A stretch of DNA of 64,000 nucleotides, from contig OX031070.1 in NCBI GenBank assembly GCA_943736015.1, positions 26,185,673 to 26,249,672 on the forward strand, written 5' to 3'. A program made the translations under genes and the position numbers. The notes beneath the pieces are model-generated. The model worked only from the letters and a program-made list of their open reading frames with translations. It was not told the origin of the DNA and ran no database searches. Origin of the DNA: Tridacna crocea. Lineage: Eukaryota > Mollusca > Bivalvia > Cardiida > Cardiidae. How positions within the stretch are numbered: the first letter of the stretch is position 1; each line of letters begins with the position of its first letter. This document shows positions 3,519-52,600 of the stretch, in pieces.

Positions 3519-3600
3519 TAAACCTTTACCAAACGACAACATTTTCGACTGATCCAAATTGATATAAATGATCATAATGTTAAAAAGAAATGGCAAAGTT
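3519..3600 (+). mobile_element. family A left-end fragment
   Basis: ACCTTTACCAAACGACAAC and the following GATCCAAATTG match the left terminus. The element breaks off before the hairpin. Confidence 0.5.
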
Positions 3601-3648
3601 AGATAGAGAACATGGTCTTTTCCTTGCCTTTGGAATACATGTACTAAA

Positions 3649-3705
3649 ATCGTCGGTTTACTTCAAAAACCTCGTAACTACAGCTTGTTACAAGCTGTAG
3701 TTACG
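3649..3705. repeat. family E foldback, copy 2 (right arm shortened)
   Basis: ATCGTCGGTTTACTTC leads into the CAGCTTGTTACAAGCTG hairpin. The right arm stops after GTTACGAG, so only the hairpin tip remains. Confidence 0.7.
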
Positions 3706-3945
3706 AGACTATTTTGCATTTGAAATGTTGTCCCGTTCTCTTTGTCCAGTGTGCGCAATTTTAATAATGACCACTGCAACAAGACGCTTGTACTGGACTG
3801 AAATTTTCCTTTTTCTTAGATTTTAGAAAACATCTCCTGAAATGCCGCAATTTCGTCAAGTAACTAACAGGAGGCTTTACTCAAACTTTGTATAAAAACT
3901 AGAGAAATTCGATATATCATTCGAACGACAATAAATTATATAGTC

Positions 3946-16561: not shown

Positions 16562-17095
16562 TTTAAAGGTGGGTATTTAGATTTTGCACATCTCGCCAAA
16601 TTACAAAAATACATATACCAGAGAAATTTATACGAAAAAACAATAAAAATCATCAACAATTAAGAATCATAAAATTACAAAGAAAAGATTTTTTGATGGT
16701 ATTCCCTTAAAAGGCTATGTAGCCTCTTAGCTATTGTAAGATTTCACGCCAAAAATCAAAAAAGCATTGTGAGAATGTCAAGTGACTGTGGCGTGACTAA
16801 TGACGCTTAAATTCCATAACACAACAAACATGTTATTATTTTCCATAATATCTTCATCTGATGCTATGTTTGAAGCTTGGTTTGTGTATTTCTGGTATGT
16901 AAATGAGCGAGTTGCTCATGTAAAGATAAACCACGTGACCCGGGTCGTAGTAAATCTCTAATTTCTGTTGTTGCCAGATAGTTTTCGACTACTCGGGTTT
17001 TATGAATGAAAATCAAAAGGCTTTGGGAATACAAGGATGCTATTTTTGTATTTCTGTAAAATTTTCGTCCCAAAATCTGAAGGGCCACCTTTAAA
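16562..17095 (+). mobile_element. family J element, copy 1
   Basis: Ends TTTAAAGGTGGG and CCACCTTTAAA form a short terminal inverted repeat. The 534-bp interior includes GAGTTGCTCATGTAAAG and TGAATGAAAATCAAAAGG. Non-coding. A second copy is inverted at 33673. Confidence 0.7.
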
Positions 17096-33672: not shown

Positions 33673-34220
33673 TCTTAAAGGTGGCCCTTAAGATTCGGGA
33701 CAAAAAGTTTACGAAAATACCAAAAAATAATCTGTATACTCCCAAAGCCTTATAATGTTCATTCATAAAACCCCAGTAGTCGAAAACCATCCAACAAGAG
33801 AAATTAAAGATTTGCTAAAGCCCAGGTCGAAGCCGACGGGAAACACGGTCTAATTTCACATGAGCAACTTGCTCATTTACATACTGGAAATACACTGACA
33901 AAGCTTCAAACATAGGGTCTGAAGAAGACGTTATGGAAAATAATTACATATTTGTTGTTTTATGCAATTTAAGGGTCATTAGTCACGTGCCAGTTACTTA
34001 ACATTCCCAAAATAGTTGTTTTGATTTTTGGCAAGAAATCTAAAAATAGCATAACGGGCTACATAGCCTTTTAAAGGAAAACCACCCCCAAATTTTTCTT
34101 GTAATATAATGATTCATAATCAATGATGATTTGTATTTTCTTTTATTATATAAATTTCAGTGATACATATATTTTTTTGATTTGATGTGATGTGAAAAAC
34201 CTAAATACCCACCTTTAAAG
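33673..34220 (-). mobile_element. family J element, copy 2
   Basis: TTAAAGGTGGCCC at the left and ACCCACCTTTAAAG at the right. The interior matches copy 1 in reverse (GAGCAACTTGCTCATTTAC). It lies between the two type 2 SINE copies. Confidence 0.7.
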
Positions 34221-34472: not shown

Positions 34473-34702
34473 TTTACCCATTACCACACAATCCCTACTT
34501 TTGACGCCCCTGAGAAAGAAGCCTTTAGAAAACATTGTGGGAAAAGGAGAAAATGCTGGTAACCAGCATTTTCTCCTTTTCCCACAATGTTTTCTACCCT
34601 TCGCAAAACAAATTTCGAATTTTCAGTCACCTTTATTTTGTCGTCTGCAAAATGCATTCAATTTGGACAAGTCTAAAATTTTGTCGTCTGGTAATGAGTT
34701 AA
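34473..34702 (-). mobile_element. family A TTAA-hairpin element, near-consensus
   Basis: Perfect hairpin with long arms. Left target TTTA, right TTAA. Confidence 0.86.
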
Positions 34703-39865: not shown

Positions 39866-40048
39866 GAAACAAATAATTCAGATGGGGACATGCAAGCTTT
39901 ATATAAACTTTTTGCGTTTTTTAAAAATATTGAAAAGTTTTTCTCTTAGCAGCAGTGGTGTTAGACCTGTTCCTACGAAACAAAGAACTCGATGCTTTGA
40001 TCTTTAGCTCGGCCGATGCCCTTACGTGGATTGATCTCCGTAGGGTTA

Positions 40049-40518
40049 AATTTTCTCACCTATGAACAGTCTCTTCATAGTATTTATATGTTAATAAAAG
40101 GCTGCAGTGGCCTTAAAGATTATTGTGCAAAAAAGAAAACTGGTGAAAGAAAACTCCAGGAAGTTAGCTATAAATTTTTCTCGCCAATTAACAGTCTCTT
40201 CATAGTATTTATATGTTAATAAAAGGAGGCAGATGCCTTAACCCATTACCACACAATCCCTACTTTTGACGCAACTGGAAAAGAAGCCTTTTGAAAACAT
40301 TGTTGGGAAAAAAGAGAAAATGCTGGTAACCAGCATTTTCTCGCTTTCCCTCAATGTTTTCTGCTCTTCACAAAACAGATTTTAAAATTTCAGTCACTTT
40401 TCTTTTGTCGTCTGCTAATACTTTTGATTTGGACAAGTCTAAAATAATGTCATCTGGTAATGAGTTAAAGATTGTTGTGCAAAAAAGAAAACCTGTGAAA
40501 GAAACTCCAGGAAGTTAT
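40049..40518. repeat. tandem duplication, about 120 bp x 2, second copy split by a transposon
   Basis: Copy 1 is uninterrupted (CAGTCTCTTCATAGTATTTA ... GCAGTGGCCTTAAAGATTAT ... CTCCAGGAAGTTA). Copy 2 has the same order but family A sits at the TTAA (40238-40468). Confidence 0.88.
40238..40468 (-). mobile_element. family A element with a paralogous empty site
   Basis: The filled site reads GATGCC-TTAA-element-TTAA-AGATTGTTGTGC; the empty paralogue at 40113-40116 reads GTGGCC-TTAA-AGATTATTGTGC. Exactly one TTAA became two, with nothing lost. Confidence 0.93.
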
Positions 40519-41264
40519 GTATACGTTCACTAGTCCCTGCGATATAGCTGAAACCCACTCTCTTGCACTCCGGATCATTACATTTACCTCTGTAGTGGGC
40601 TCAGAAAGTAGCGTCATTACGTCATATTTTTGTCACATGACCAAAACTCAAAATAGCTACACAAACGCCGGTGAAAGAAAGACCAATACCGATTGTTTCG
40701 TGTGCTGTTTAAACAGCATGGGACCAATCAGACTTAAACGATAGTTATTGAACACAAGAGGGATTTTCTGAAAAGCCTAAATATCTTTACAGGACGATAA
40801 CTTGATTTTTAATCGTACAAACTTAGATCCAGCGGTGTGTCAAATCAGTTGTCATCATTGATGGGCGCAGCTATTTTTGTTACAATCGGTGTAAGATTCT
40901 TAAAAGTGAAGAGGCTAAAAGAAAAATAGTTCCATTTAATACAGGTAAATTCATCAGTTTGAACGCACCTATAATGTACCCAGAATCATATTTCCTTTGT
41001 CTAACTTACAATTTTACATATGAAACAGTTAAACAGTTTCAAAACATCTTTTCCTCGGTTTGACAAGATTCTTGTCATTTAGCCCATCGCAGAGATGTAT
41101 GTGAGGTAACGAACGACAACTCTGCTCGGAGATTGGCTGAAACCATGTGTAAAACGGTGTTAAACACCATACAAACAAACTGTTCCAAAGTTTAGTGCCT
41201 ATTTATACCAAACTTCAGGTAAACTTAATAATAAGTTGTGTTTGGGGGGAGTAATATATATTCT
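40519..41264. other. unassigned sequence
   Basis: No exon or repeat family recognised. Confidence 0.4.
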
Positions 41265-43256: not shown

Positions 43257-43376
43257 TATCTCTCACCTCTGATCCATGTTAGAAATTGATCAGTGGCTTG
43301 GAAAGAAAGTTGTGTAAGTACGGGTGTGAGAAAGCCAGGAAACATATGTGTAGGTGCAATGTAGAGCATCGTCACA

Positions 43377-44130
43377 ATGCGGTACCTTCGTAACAGAATG
43401 ATACCTTCGTCACAGGGCAGTACTTTCGTCACAGTGCAGTACGTGCTTTCGTCACAGCACTGTACTCGTGTCGCAGAGCGCGTTTCTTTCGTCACAAAAA
43501 GTGGTACTTTCGTCACAGAGCGGTACTTTCGTCACAGAGCGGTATTTTCGTCACAGCATGGTACTTGTGTCACGGAGCGCAGTACTTTCGTCACAGAGCG
43601 GTACTTTCGTCACAGAGCGGTACTTTTGTCAAAGCGCGGTACTTTCGTCACAGAGAATGGTAACTTCGTTACACAGCACGGTAATTTCGTCACAGAGCGC
43701 GATACTTTAGTCACAGAGGGTTCTTTTATCAAGGCGCAGTACTTTCGTCACATACACACAGAGAGCGGTACTTTCGTCACAGAGCACAGTACTTTTGTCA
43801 CATACACACAGAGCACGGTACTTTGGTCACAGAGCGCGGTACTCACGTCACATACACACAGAGAGCAGTACTTTCGTCACATACACACACAGCGCGCATA
43901 CTTTCGTCACAGCGCACGTACTTTCGTCACATACACACAGAGCGCGGTACTTTGGTCACAGAGCGCGGTACTTTCGTCACATACACACAGAGCGCGGTAC
44001 TTTCGTCACTGAGCGCGGTACTTTCGTTACAGCACGGTACTTTCGTCTCAGATTGTGGTAGTTTCGAGACAGGGTGTGATACTTTTGTTACAGAGTAAGG
44101 TACATGTATTTTCGTTCCAAAGAGTGGTAA
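43377..44130. repeat. satellite 1: GGTACTTTCGTCACAGAGCG units
   Basis: Units of about 17-20 bp on the core GGTACTTTCGTCACA, alternating in the middle with longer units that carry CATACACACAGAGCGCG. The array decays toward 44400. Frames of 76-211 codons on both strands are products of the repeat. Confidence 0.9.
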
Positions 44131-44460
44131 GTTTGTCTCAGAGCAAGTTACATTCATAACAGAGCATGATGTCTAACTCACAGACTGTTTTCGTCACAAA
44201 GCACTGCAGTTTATTTACAGAGCATGTTATGTTTGTCACAGAGCCAGGAAATTTGAATTTAAATTCACATAAGTTTGTCTCAGGGCAAGTTACTTTCATA
44301 ACAAAGCATGATATCTAACTAACGCACTGTTCTCGTCACATAGCACTGCAGTTTATTTTTACAGAGCATAGTATGTTTGTCACAGAGCCAGGTAATTTGA
44401 ACTAAGTTCAGGTAAGTTTGTTACAGCACACGGTCAGAAAATATGGTATAAACCCTCTTG
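44131..44460. repeat. decayed edge between satellites
   Basis: Diverged copies such as GCAAGTTACATTCATAACAG and a duplicated ACAGAGCCAGGTAATTTGAA stretch lie between the two arrays. Confidence 0.6.
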
Positions 44461-45440
44461 AAAACTTTCGTCACACAGCACGCCAATTAATCAACGACGC
44501 CAGTACTTTCGTCACACACAACGCCATTGAAATCAACGACATCGGTACTTTCGTTACGCAGAACGCCACTGTATTCGACGACATCGGTACTTTCGTCGCA
44601 CAGAACGCCACTGTATTCGACGACATCGTACTTTCGTCACAGAGAACGCCATTTTAATCGACCACATCGGTACTTTCGTCACACTGAACACCACTGTAAT
44701 CACCATCGATACTTTCGTTACACAGAACGCCACTGTAATCGACGACATCTGTCCTTTCGTCACACAGAACGCCATTGTATTCGACGACATCGGTACTTTC
44801 GTCGCACAGAGCGTCATTGTAATCGACGACATCGGTACTTTCGTCGCACAGAGCGCCATTGTATTCGACGCCATCGGTACTTTCGTCGCACAGAACGCCA
44901 TTGTATTCGACGACATCGGTACTTTCGTCGCACAGAGCGTCACTGTAATCGACGCCATCGGTACTTTCGTCGCACAGAACGCCACTGTAATCGACGCCAT
45001 CGGTACTTTCGTCGCACAGAACGCCACTGTATTCGACGCCATCGGTACTTTCGTCGCACAGAACGCCATTGTGATCAACGACATCGGTACTTTCGTCACA
45101 CAGAACGCCCCTGTATTCGACGCCATCGGTACTTTCGTCACACAGGACGCCACTGTGATCAACGACATCGTACTTTCGTCACACAGAACGCCACTGTTAT
45201 CAACGACATCGGTACTTTCGTCACACAGGACGCCACTGTGATCAACGACATCGGTACTTTCGTCACACAGAACGCCACTGTGATCAACGACATCGGTTCT
45301 TTCGTTACACAGGACGCCATTGTAATCAACGACATCGGTACTTTCGTCACACAGCACGCCACCGTTATCGATGTTATTGGTACTTTCGTCACTCAGCACG
45401 CTGCTGTTATCAGCAACACTGTGACAGCACTTTGGTCACC
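44461..45440. repeat. satellite 2: 42-bp units, about 23 copies
   Basis: Unit: GGTACTTTCGTCGCACAG, AACGCCACTGTAATC, GACGACATC. The period is a multiple of three, so frames of 310 (+) and 281 (-) codons stay open as 14-residue repeats on both strands. It shares GGTACTTTCGTC(A/G)CA with satellite 1. Confidence 0.92.
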
Positions 45441-46104
45441 GAACACAGCATTCTTTTAAATGAACAAGATCCTCTACAGGTAAAACACATTTTTTTTTTA
45501 CTAAACAAAACGGCAAATTATTTTTTTACTTATCAAAAGAACACGTTACTTTTGTCATAGATGAAGTTACCAAGAGAAAAATGATAAGTTATATTAAAAA
45601 AAAAAAGGCATGTCATTCTCTGTGATGACCTTTTAAAGGATACTTACAGTGGAAGGCGGCTTAGACCCGATGATTGACTACTGGGTGACAGAGCTCCCCG
45701 CCAATTCTCTGCTTTCGTAAGGCAAAAATGTACAGAAATATTACTACGCATTTGTATATTTCCTGTATTAAGAAGGACCATTTTACCTCATAATTCAGTT
45801 TGTTTGTAAACAAAATGGACATTATGAATCCCCAATCACGTGATGCCTTTCATGTAATGGAAGATCAAGTTTAAAACAAAAGAACTAAGTCATTGGTTAA
45901 GGAAGAATAATGCACAAAGCACTGGTAAAAGATAGCTAAGAAAAGCACGGTTGATGCACTGGTTGTCTCGATAAAACTTAAATATTGTTGTTCAGCATTC
46001 ATTAAAAAAATGCGCCAGCGATTTTCTGAACATTCTTGGTCACGAAATCGGTGCGTCTTTCCCGGAAAATTTATCCCCTAGTGACTTGCCATTTTTCATA
46101 GGAC
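45441..46104. other. unassigned sequence
   Basis: A/T runs near 45490 and 45595. No gene or repeat family recognised. Confidence 0.4.
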
Positions 46105-49607: not shown

Positions 49608-52600
49608 GTATCTCTCACCAACACAAATTTTTGCCTCTTAAAAATACTATTTACACCTGACAACTACCTATATTTGGTGATGGTACTATATGATGCAATA
49701 GGAGATCAGCAGTCCATCATTTAAGAGGACTTTTGCAGAGTTGTTCAGTAGACATAATTTGAAACCTAGGGTTTAGGCTCCATGGCAAGCTGCACAAGAC
49801 TTTATAATAGTGCAAGAATTACTGGCTGTAAGAATTGCATATAGTTACGTGCAGTTACTTTTCCACATATGCATCCTTACCTTGACTGTCATTTTTCAAT
49901 ACAGGAGTAATTGATAGGTGAAGTCTATGATAACATTCAGATTTTAATGCCAGTTTGTTCGTTATAGCCCCGCAAAATGAATGTTTTTGGGGGTATACTG
50001 GAATCAGCCTGCCTGTCCGTGTGTGTGTCTGTGTACAAAATACTAGCTATTGCCTGTTTCCGTCAAAGCGCTGGTGGGGGTATTAAGACAAACTTAGTGA
50101 CAGCTTTAGTTTTATTTTGTATCGATTGTCTGAATAAAGAAAATAGGCTGATTGGTTTATAGTATCACACTCATCTTGTACATAACTTGCCAAGCTAGAT
50201 AGAAATATGTAAGAGACATAGCTCCAAATAAGTGGCAGTGAAAACCATTATTTCTCTCTTTAGAATCATCTCAGTAAGACAGTTCTAATGAGTACCCTTA
50301 ACATAGGATTTATTGGAGAATAATAGATATTTTCAATTTTGAAATCAAAGTAACCTTCCCATCTGGACTGCTGTAAAGATTTTAAATGCAAATCAGCCTG
50401 ATTGCCACCCAAACAACAGTGGTATGGTGAAAAATACCTCTTCAGTCTCTGCAGCAAAAGTGAATTTATTGTCTGTACAATTAATGTTGATATCTTTTTT
50501 TCAATTTTCAGTGGAAAGATAACTTCTCCAAAATGGAAACCTTTTCGTGGTATGCATTTGAGAGTAAAGGACAAGATAAGGTTGAATAACATCATTTGGA
50601 GAGAATGGCACATGCAGTGTAAGTTAATAGATGTCGAAACTTAGTATCTGATGTTAAAAGGCGTTTAGATAATTGGTTGATTTGTTTACATAAGCTATTA
50701 ACTCTTTACCAAACAACAAATTTTTGGACTGGACCAAATTCAAAGCATCTGCAGACAACAAATTATATCTTGATACTGATGATTTCTGGCTTAAAGGGTA
50801 GAAAATATTGTGGGAAAAGAATAAAAAGCTGTTGCATCACTTTTATATTAATCTATGGGTTGACTGTACTAGTCAGTCTTCTTGAACCCAAACTCTTTTA
50901 GAGAGTGTAGGAACTGTCACTTTGATTTTCTTTCAACATTATTAGCAGGTATGGATGATTTCATAGTTTGGTCCCAGAAGAGAGAATTTTCAGCAAATAC
51001 ACAATGGCAATGAGAAAACCGACAAATCTCAAAATTTGGCTTAAAAAAAATATATCTTTACAGCACACCTGCATTGTATTTGAAGATCACTATAGAGACT
51101 GCCAAAACGCATACACAGTTCGCTGGCCTCCATCTGATAAAGGCTTAAACTTGGTTATCAAAGGCTAGGACCAGATTACCAAAATAAGCTATTGACAGAT
51201 GTAGCAGGAGTTTTTTCGTTTAGATGATTACTAGTATGGAAAACTCGCTCTTTTTGAGAAGTGAAATCGCTGATATTTGGATTGTCTATGTAATGTACTC
51301 TGAATGATTGGAGGTATGATTTCAACCCACCACAGAAACATTAGGAAAACCGACACCCAAGCTTTTCTTTGGAATAACTACATTATGCAGTGAAAAACAC
51401 AACTCATTTTGCTTAACCCTTTACTCCATAGATACTCATTTCTACGCATTGCTTGTAGGAGCCTTTGGAAAACATTGTAGCAAAAGGTGAAATTGCTCGT
51501 CACGAGCAATTTCACCTTTTGCCACAATGTTATCTACAATATCAAAAGGTGTCATATACACATAAAAGGCTTTATCCTTGCTGTTATTTAGGGTCAATTA
51601 GAAATACCATAGAAATGCCTTATGGGTTAAAAGGTTAATACATTGAGCAATTTCGGGAAAAATGGTGATACTCTTTTTGGACTGGGAACAGACTCTACTG
51701 AACATTCATAGAAGGGAAAGAAAATGCTGTATTAGAACAAAATTGACATAGAGAAGATATTTTGATGTTTGATTTCTTTCATCTTAAAAAAAAAATGCTG
51801 CAGACAACTTTGAAAACATCCTAGCTTAACTCTTTACCAAACAACAAAGCTTACTGGTACTCTATCAGGTTTGTTAAAATTGGGAATCGTGTGGTGAAGG
51901 AATTAAAAAGGAGTTCCCCTGTACTGCACAGTGCCAATTTTTGACAACACTACTCACCCCTAAGAAAGAAGCCTTTCGATAACGTAGAGGAAAAAGGGGA
52001 AAATGTTGGTAACCAGCATTTTCTCCTTTTCATGCAATGTTTTCTACTCTACCAAAGAAAGATTGCACCATTTAACCCATTACCACACAATCCCTACTTT
52101 TGACGCCCCAGAGAAAGAAGCCTTTTGAAAACACTGTAGGAAAAGGAGAAAATGCTGGTAACCAGCATTTTCTCCTTTTCCCACAGTGTTTTCTACCCTT
52201 CCCAGAACAAATTTCAAATTTTCAGTCACTTTTATTTTGTCGTCTGCAAATGCTTTCGATTTAGGCAAGCCTGAAATTTTGTTGTGTGGAAATGAGTTAA
52301 GCGACAATAGAATTGTTGTCTGCAAAAACTTCCATTTTTGGACTAGGCTAAAATTTTATCATGTGGTAAAGGATTAACCCTTTACCCCATAAGACATTTC
52401 TATGGTATCTCTAATTGACCCTAAATAACAGCAAGGATAAAGCCGTTTTCTTATGTATATATGACACCTTTTGATTAGCGTAGAAAACATTGTGGCAAAA
52501 GGTGAAATTGCTCGTCACGAGCAATTTCACCTTTTGCCACAATGTTTTCCAAAGGCTCCTTCAAGCAATGTGTAGAAATGAGTATCTATGGAGTAAAGGG

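Follow-up and report, generated by a model that had tools for sequence, protein, structure and literature searches.

Two adjacent copies of a sequence of approximately 125 bp, lying in the window (the whole 64,000-nucleotide stretch of Tridacna crocea DNA that was analysed), differ by one 231-bp element in the second copy. This element is very probably a non-autonomous piggyBac element (a MITE), and its ends suggest that it most likely moved by cut-and-paste using a transposase supplied in trans. As a demonstration of insertion at TTAA the pair is clean but nothing out of the ordinary, and the family to which the inserted element belongs is of a kind already known, the piggyBac MITE, though very large.

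An empty and a filled TTAA site in a tandem duplication

Reading, repeat finding and alignment agreed on a tandem duplication of two units (Table 1), the border between which is ambiguous by 1-2 bases. The sequence-only reading had described adjacent copies of about 120 bp that differ by one element of family A, and this was borne out, although the positions that it gave for the copies, 40049-40168 and 40169-40518, are a few bases off. When the element was taken out of the alignment, the units were identical in 113 of 125 columns, the flanks being separated by 12 substitutions plus one 1-base gap per copy. Copy 1 carries a single TTAA and copy 2 carries TTAA-element-TTAA, and the junction letters were as originally reported, namely GGCC-TTAA-AGATTATTGTG in the empty copy and TGCC-TTAA-element-TTAA-AGATTGTTGTG in the filled one. 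The accompanying statement that the flanks are preserved to the base is correct for the junction, which is exact with 0 bases lost and 0 gained, but not for the flanks, given their substitutions. No remnant of the element was found in copy 1 (40047-40172), and solo remnants in both paralogues, named beforehand as evidence against insertion, are thus absent.

TTAA starts at 0.73% of the positions in the window, and the alignment gap falls exactly between two TTAA sites. The joined flanks of the filled copy matched the empty copy with E = 8e-40, and the piece between them is itself a complete copy of a family for which the profile gave 34 full-length matches in the window. A search of the genome (1.05 Gb, 31 contigs) with positions 40040-40175, which skipped very common words and scored the best candidates only, gave three matches, its own place and both halves of copy 2, and returned no further copy of the 125-bp unit that could serve as an outgroup to orient the event. 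Since the search gave only these two units, the duplication looks private.

Table 1. Positions of the features of the window discussed in the text
Feature	Position	Strand	Basis
Empty unit, single TTAA at 40113-40116	40047..40172	+	Reading, repeat finding, alignment
Filled unit, element included	40171..40523	+	Reading, repeat finding, alignment; genome search gave no further unit
Non-autonomous piggyBac element (MITE; very probable), 231 bp including TTAA at 40238-40241 and 40465-40468	40238..40468	+	Ends match those of a transposase-bearing element
Internal hairpin, imperfect in this copy	40293..40361	+	Inverted repeats; DNA fold z = -6.1 versus 200 shuffles
Second family copy, nested in an older relative; second unoccupied-site case	52072..52300	+	Flank comparison
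Third family copy, nested in a relative; left target now GTAA	14428..14656	+	8 homologous sites, TTGA in 7 of 8

Size, ends and target sites of the family

A profile built from 22 window copies identified 74 non-overlapping pieces of the family in the window, occupying 13.0 of 64 kb, with 34 at full length. In a 200-kb sample of the genome, drawn from 18 contigs as twenty 10-kb places at round coordinates, the same search found 171 pieces covering 29.1 of 200 kb (14.6%), 60 of them full length. Extrapolation gives roughly 300,000 full-length copies genome-wide, a rough figure since the number of full-length copies per 10-kb place ranged from 0 to 8. The members are short, uniform in length (mode 229 bp), present in high copy number and apparently non-coding, as expected of MITEs. 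At 43365-45557 of the window there are long overlapping open reading frames on both strands, which by eye look more like translated tandem repeats than genes.

TTAA was present at both ends of 41 of the 60 sampled full-length copies versus 12 of the 34 in the window. Among the 22 window copies without it, 15 differ by one base at one end, and we read these one-base deviations as decay of TTAA. A different matching pair of tetranucleotides, which would have indicated target duplications other than TTAA, occurred in 0 of 60 sampled and 0 of 34 window copies. The claim that the element is mobile and duplicates TTAA is thus supported by these ends, and also by the further unoccupied sites and the transposase-bearing relative described below.

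The terminal inverted repeats of 40238-40468 begin CCC/CYC, as in the piggyBac superfamily, with CCCATTACC at the left end and, read inward, CTCATTACC at the right; the ends had initially been given, incorrectly, as CCCTTTACC. The end motifs that the cited section of PMC10813416 gives for piggyBac elements include CCCAT and CCCTT. Two other TTAA-bounded sequences in the window, 16563-17094 (532 bp) and 33675-34218 (544 bp), have inverted ends that begin AGGTGG and are possibly Kolobok-like, judging by these ends.

Unoccupied sites elsewhere

For 93 of the 94 full-length copies (one lay too near the end of its piece), both flanks, with one TTAA between them, were compared to sequence from the window and the 200-kb sample, excluding matches at the copy's own place. 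A homologous unoccupied site was found for 13 of the 93, and the commonest or only target letters at these sites were TTAA in six cases, one step off TTAA in five and other letters in two. The copy at 40238 is among the six. Three of these six are less independent since an element end lies within one flank, and in a fourth, which is nested, 5 of 9 homologues are gapped near the junction; such a gap also affects one of the five one-step-off sites and both of the remaining two.

The best-populated site is that of 52072-52300, where 65 homologues span the junction, 46 of them without a gap near it, and the target letters are TTCA in 32, TTGA in 12, TTAA in 5, TTTA in 5 and others in 11. At the copy 34473-34702 the left target reads TTTA, as do the two empty sites homologous to it, perhaps owing to insertion at a non-TTAA target or to decay.

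A transposase-bearing element with matching ends

The piggyBac transposase family PF13843 gave 118 matches in the genome, approximately 30 of which are nearly complete and several of which share the same score and frame length. Ten of these near-full-length loci were read, so a closer partner than the one described here may exist. Seven of the ten have TTAA-CCC ends of other sequences. For L032 and L035, element ends were not found. A set of five elements shares a 492-codon frame. By comparing the contig 3 and contig 5 copies we placed the right end of this element at C5:7871668; the left end, C5:7864466, was located first by its letters, and the copies on contigs 3, 9 and 15, whose outer flanks differ, bore it out as a boundary. 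The element is thus 7,203 bp long including both TTAA, with TTAACCCATTACCGTTCAATAACGCCTTTTGACGCCCCT at its left end and GGTAATGAGTTAA at its right.

The left end of the MITE agrees with that of the 7.2-kb element at 32 of 40 bases in the same orientation, and at the right end the outermost 14 bases, TTAA included, are the same. As a comparison we used 12 of the 14 ends of seven other piggyBac elements. Likeness to the MITE left end was 28/36 for the 7.2-kb element and at most 18/36 for the others, and over the first 10 bases of the right end it was 10/10 and at most 5/10, respectively. Over 36 bases of the right end the 7.2-kb element scored 13/36, below the 16/36 of an unrelated end, and the likeness there is therefore limited to the terminal repeat. 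Apart from inserted pieces of the family, nothing of the MITE interior, hairpin included, was found inside the 7.2-kb element. There are five such family A pieces within it (L039, C5:7864466-7871668), two of them abutting, and they look like later insertions.

Of the five element copies, four are as expected at the left end and four at the right; the contig 9 copy is without the right TTAA (L051, C9:10147050-10147300) and the contig 10 copy without the left (L052, C10:12642550-12642800), an unusual break for the family. The pieces fetched from the contig 3 and contig 5 copies were 98.6-99.9% identical. The 492-codon frame (stop to stop) is uninterrupted, matches DDE_Tnp_1_7 over positions 1-349 of 349 and matches the solved piggyBat (E 6e-40) and piggyBac (E 4e-36) transposases. 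The aligned aspartates in DEAMI, FDN and VDLHDQ are presumably catalytic. The sequence-only reading had proposed searching for a full-length piggyBac transposase flanked by like ends, and this element has such a transposase frame, with outermost ends that agree with those of the MITE. Just inside its left end there is an array of 3.6 copies of a 35-bp unit, of which the MITE has approximately one, spaced as in the 7.2-kb element.

The internal hairpin

The family consensus contains a hairpin with a perfect 32-bp stem and a 3-base loop. In 128 of 135 copies (the seven picked by likeness to 40238 were left out), divergence from the consensus was 7.1% in the hairpin versus 18.2% elsewhere. A branch-based test, in which ten CpG columns were excluded and changes were taken from parsimony on an approximate tree, gave a per-site change in the hairpin, relative to outside, of 0.64 for terminal branches (437 of 1984 changes within the hairpin) and 0.29 for internal ones (63 of 548; Fisher p = 1.4e-8). 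Since the ratio is lower on internal branches, the constraint appears to act mostly in source lineages. Protection of each copy by the hairpin after insertion was considered and rejected: singletons amounted to 2.05% in the hairpin versus 2.76% outside in 27 window copies, and to 0.49% versus 0.22% in the 128 copies, the reverse relation, with the outside columns saturated with shared variants.

Seven stem pairs changed on both sides on internal branches, six of them to complementary bases (0-2 and 0 with slid partners), and 27 did so on terminal branches, 14 complementary (14-18 and 3-4 with slid partners). Set against one-sided changes, complementary two-sided changes numbered 6 versus 44 on internal and 14 versus 357 on terminal branches (p = 0.02), although the numbers are small. 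A count of both-sided changes over copies, 85 versus 27 expected, is confounded by relatedness and was not relied on.

Related palindromes were found on other elements. Family B, represented by five window copies, has other ends than family A, and the two are identical at 58 of 67 hairpin positions and at 104 of 134 alignable columns in the rest, where there are many gaps. By eye, eight of the nine hairpin differences form four complementary pairs, and the ninth lies in the loop. Two autonomous piggyBac elements with other ends carry similar sequences: one has a hairpin with like outer and different inner letters (L041:1576-1653), and the other has motifs resembling the MITE palindrome (L033:960-1420 and 3560-3830). 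Each of these elements gave five hairpin motif hits versus approximately 0.5 expected from single-base shuffles only, and the other five of the seven elements gave 0 or 1.

Discussion

The difference between the two units could in principle have arisen without transposition, either by a chance deletion that emptied copy 1 or as an artefact of assembly. We regard this as scarcely credible since the gap corresponds to precisely one full-length copy of the family, with a single TTAA left behind, and since units that differ at 12 of 125 positions are not one sequence assembled twice. Very improbable, too, is membership of another TTAA-targeting group such as Kolobok. TTAA had been called the piggyBac signature, and this part of the original argument did not stand: Kolobok likewise duplicates TTAA (PMC6004289, in the part cited) and the window holds two AGG-ended TTAA pairs, so TTAA alone is not diagnostic. 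The piggyBac type itself did stand. The ends described for Kolobok start with purines, RR or AG (PMC6004289), whereas those of 40238-40468 begin CCC or CTC, and the matching ends sit on an element encoding a DDE_Tnp_1_7 transposase; it is the CCC ends and the transposase that carry the piggyBac assignment. The order of events is less secure. We infer that the insertion followed the duplication, which is the order needing the fewest events, but this is not proven, contrary to what had at first been claimed, because piggyBac excises seamlessly and the age estimates overlap. The element might instead have been present before the duplication, the empty unit being a site that it vacated, which we consider unlikely but deserving of weight. 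PiggyBac excision is usually precise, as described in the cited part of PMC2872659. The terminal branch of the element measures 0.058 (approximately 13 changes) and the unit divergence of 12/125 corresponds to about 0.05 per lineage, so that under Poisson counts the element has a probability of 0.33 of being younger than the duplication, or of 0.16 with 16 private changes. Against this, the age intervals (0.032-0.095 versus 0.026-0.081) overlap widely, the terminal branch may hold changes predating the insertion, and an element older than the duplication requires one event more than insertion after duplication.

The paired changes in the stem could reflect selection for pairing or template switching. 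On the latter reading, to which we give somewhat less than even chances, template switching at replication would mend imperfect palindromes and so keep the stem perfect, and the hairpin would have no role in transposition. Such switching is able both to build and to preserve perfect stems, with paired changes as a result (PMC8794818, as far as cited here), and complementary two-sided changes occur on terminal branches as well (14 of 384 changed pairs). By itself it leaves unexplained the lower rate of change in the hairpin, more so on internal than on terminal branches, and internal branches have, in proportion, more of the complementary two-sided changes, albeit in small numbers. We tentatively propose, while thinking it rather doubtful, that the palindrome, common to MITE families with different ends, present in a related form in L041 and enriched as a motif in L033, is a transmissible cis-module of piggyBac elements, held during transposition for its pairing as a hairpin, a cruciform or a dimer-binding palindrome, which together with a reduced subterminal array might have let one MITE group reach approximately 15% of the genome.

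In the pathway that is most likely for 40238-40468, a transposase supplied in trans would excise a MITE copy elsewhere, which would then integrate at the TTAA of one unit and duplicate that target. The likely supplier would be a transposase like that of the 7.2-kb element in the same genome, and from the matching ends we infer that this enzyme may move the MITE. The MITE itself has the terminal repeats, approximately one subterminal 35-bp unit where the 7.2-kb element has 3.6, and an internal hairpin. More speculatively, it might have become a good substrate through the loss of subterminal units. PiggyBat, the activity of which is reported to be restricted by its own extra subterminal sites (PMC11707139, in part), offers an analogy for the MITE described here, and no more than an analogy.

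The nearest precedent in the open-licence literature, as far as the cited part of PMC2872659 describes it, is provided by the CMITEs of the coral Acropora. These are short piggyBac-type elements with TTAA and CCC ends and an empty/filled pair; their several families share a conserved internal region and differ in their ends, as do families A and B, and the terminal repeats of an autonomous element are identical to theirs. CMITEs are approximately 100 bp long, of which the internal region takes up 75 bp, and number an estimated 1,600 (PMC2872659), whereas the T. crocea MITE is approximately 229 bp long, has a hairpin and is far more numerous by our extrapolation; the two were compared by description, not by internal sequence. 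The piggyBat element of Myotis (PMC11707139, in the part cited; chain 9c0f) has a related transposase with a cysteine-rich C-terminal part and an array of subterminal motif units at its left end, but the palindromes described there are short protein-binding sites and not a 32-bp stem. The T2-MITE and Kolobok elements of Xenopus resemble the present family in their TTAA target and their abundance of short non-autonomous elements and differ in having AGG or AG ends and another transposase, according to the cited part of PMC6004289. No paper containing the hairpin letters was found in the open-licence literature, and the family may already be catalogued in Repbase or Dfam.

That one group of piggyBac MITEs fills approximately 15% of a 200-kb sample is the wider result, and a more useful one than the empty/filled pair. 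As autonomous elements with matching ends are present in the same genome, mobilisation in trans is directly testable. The pairing-preserving change in the hairpin bears on a question raised by the coral CMITEs, namely why the internal region is conserved while the ends diverge.
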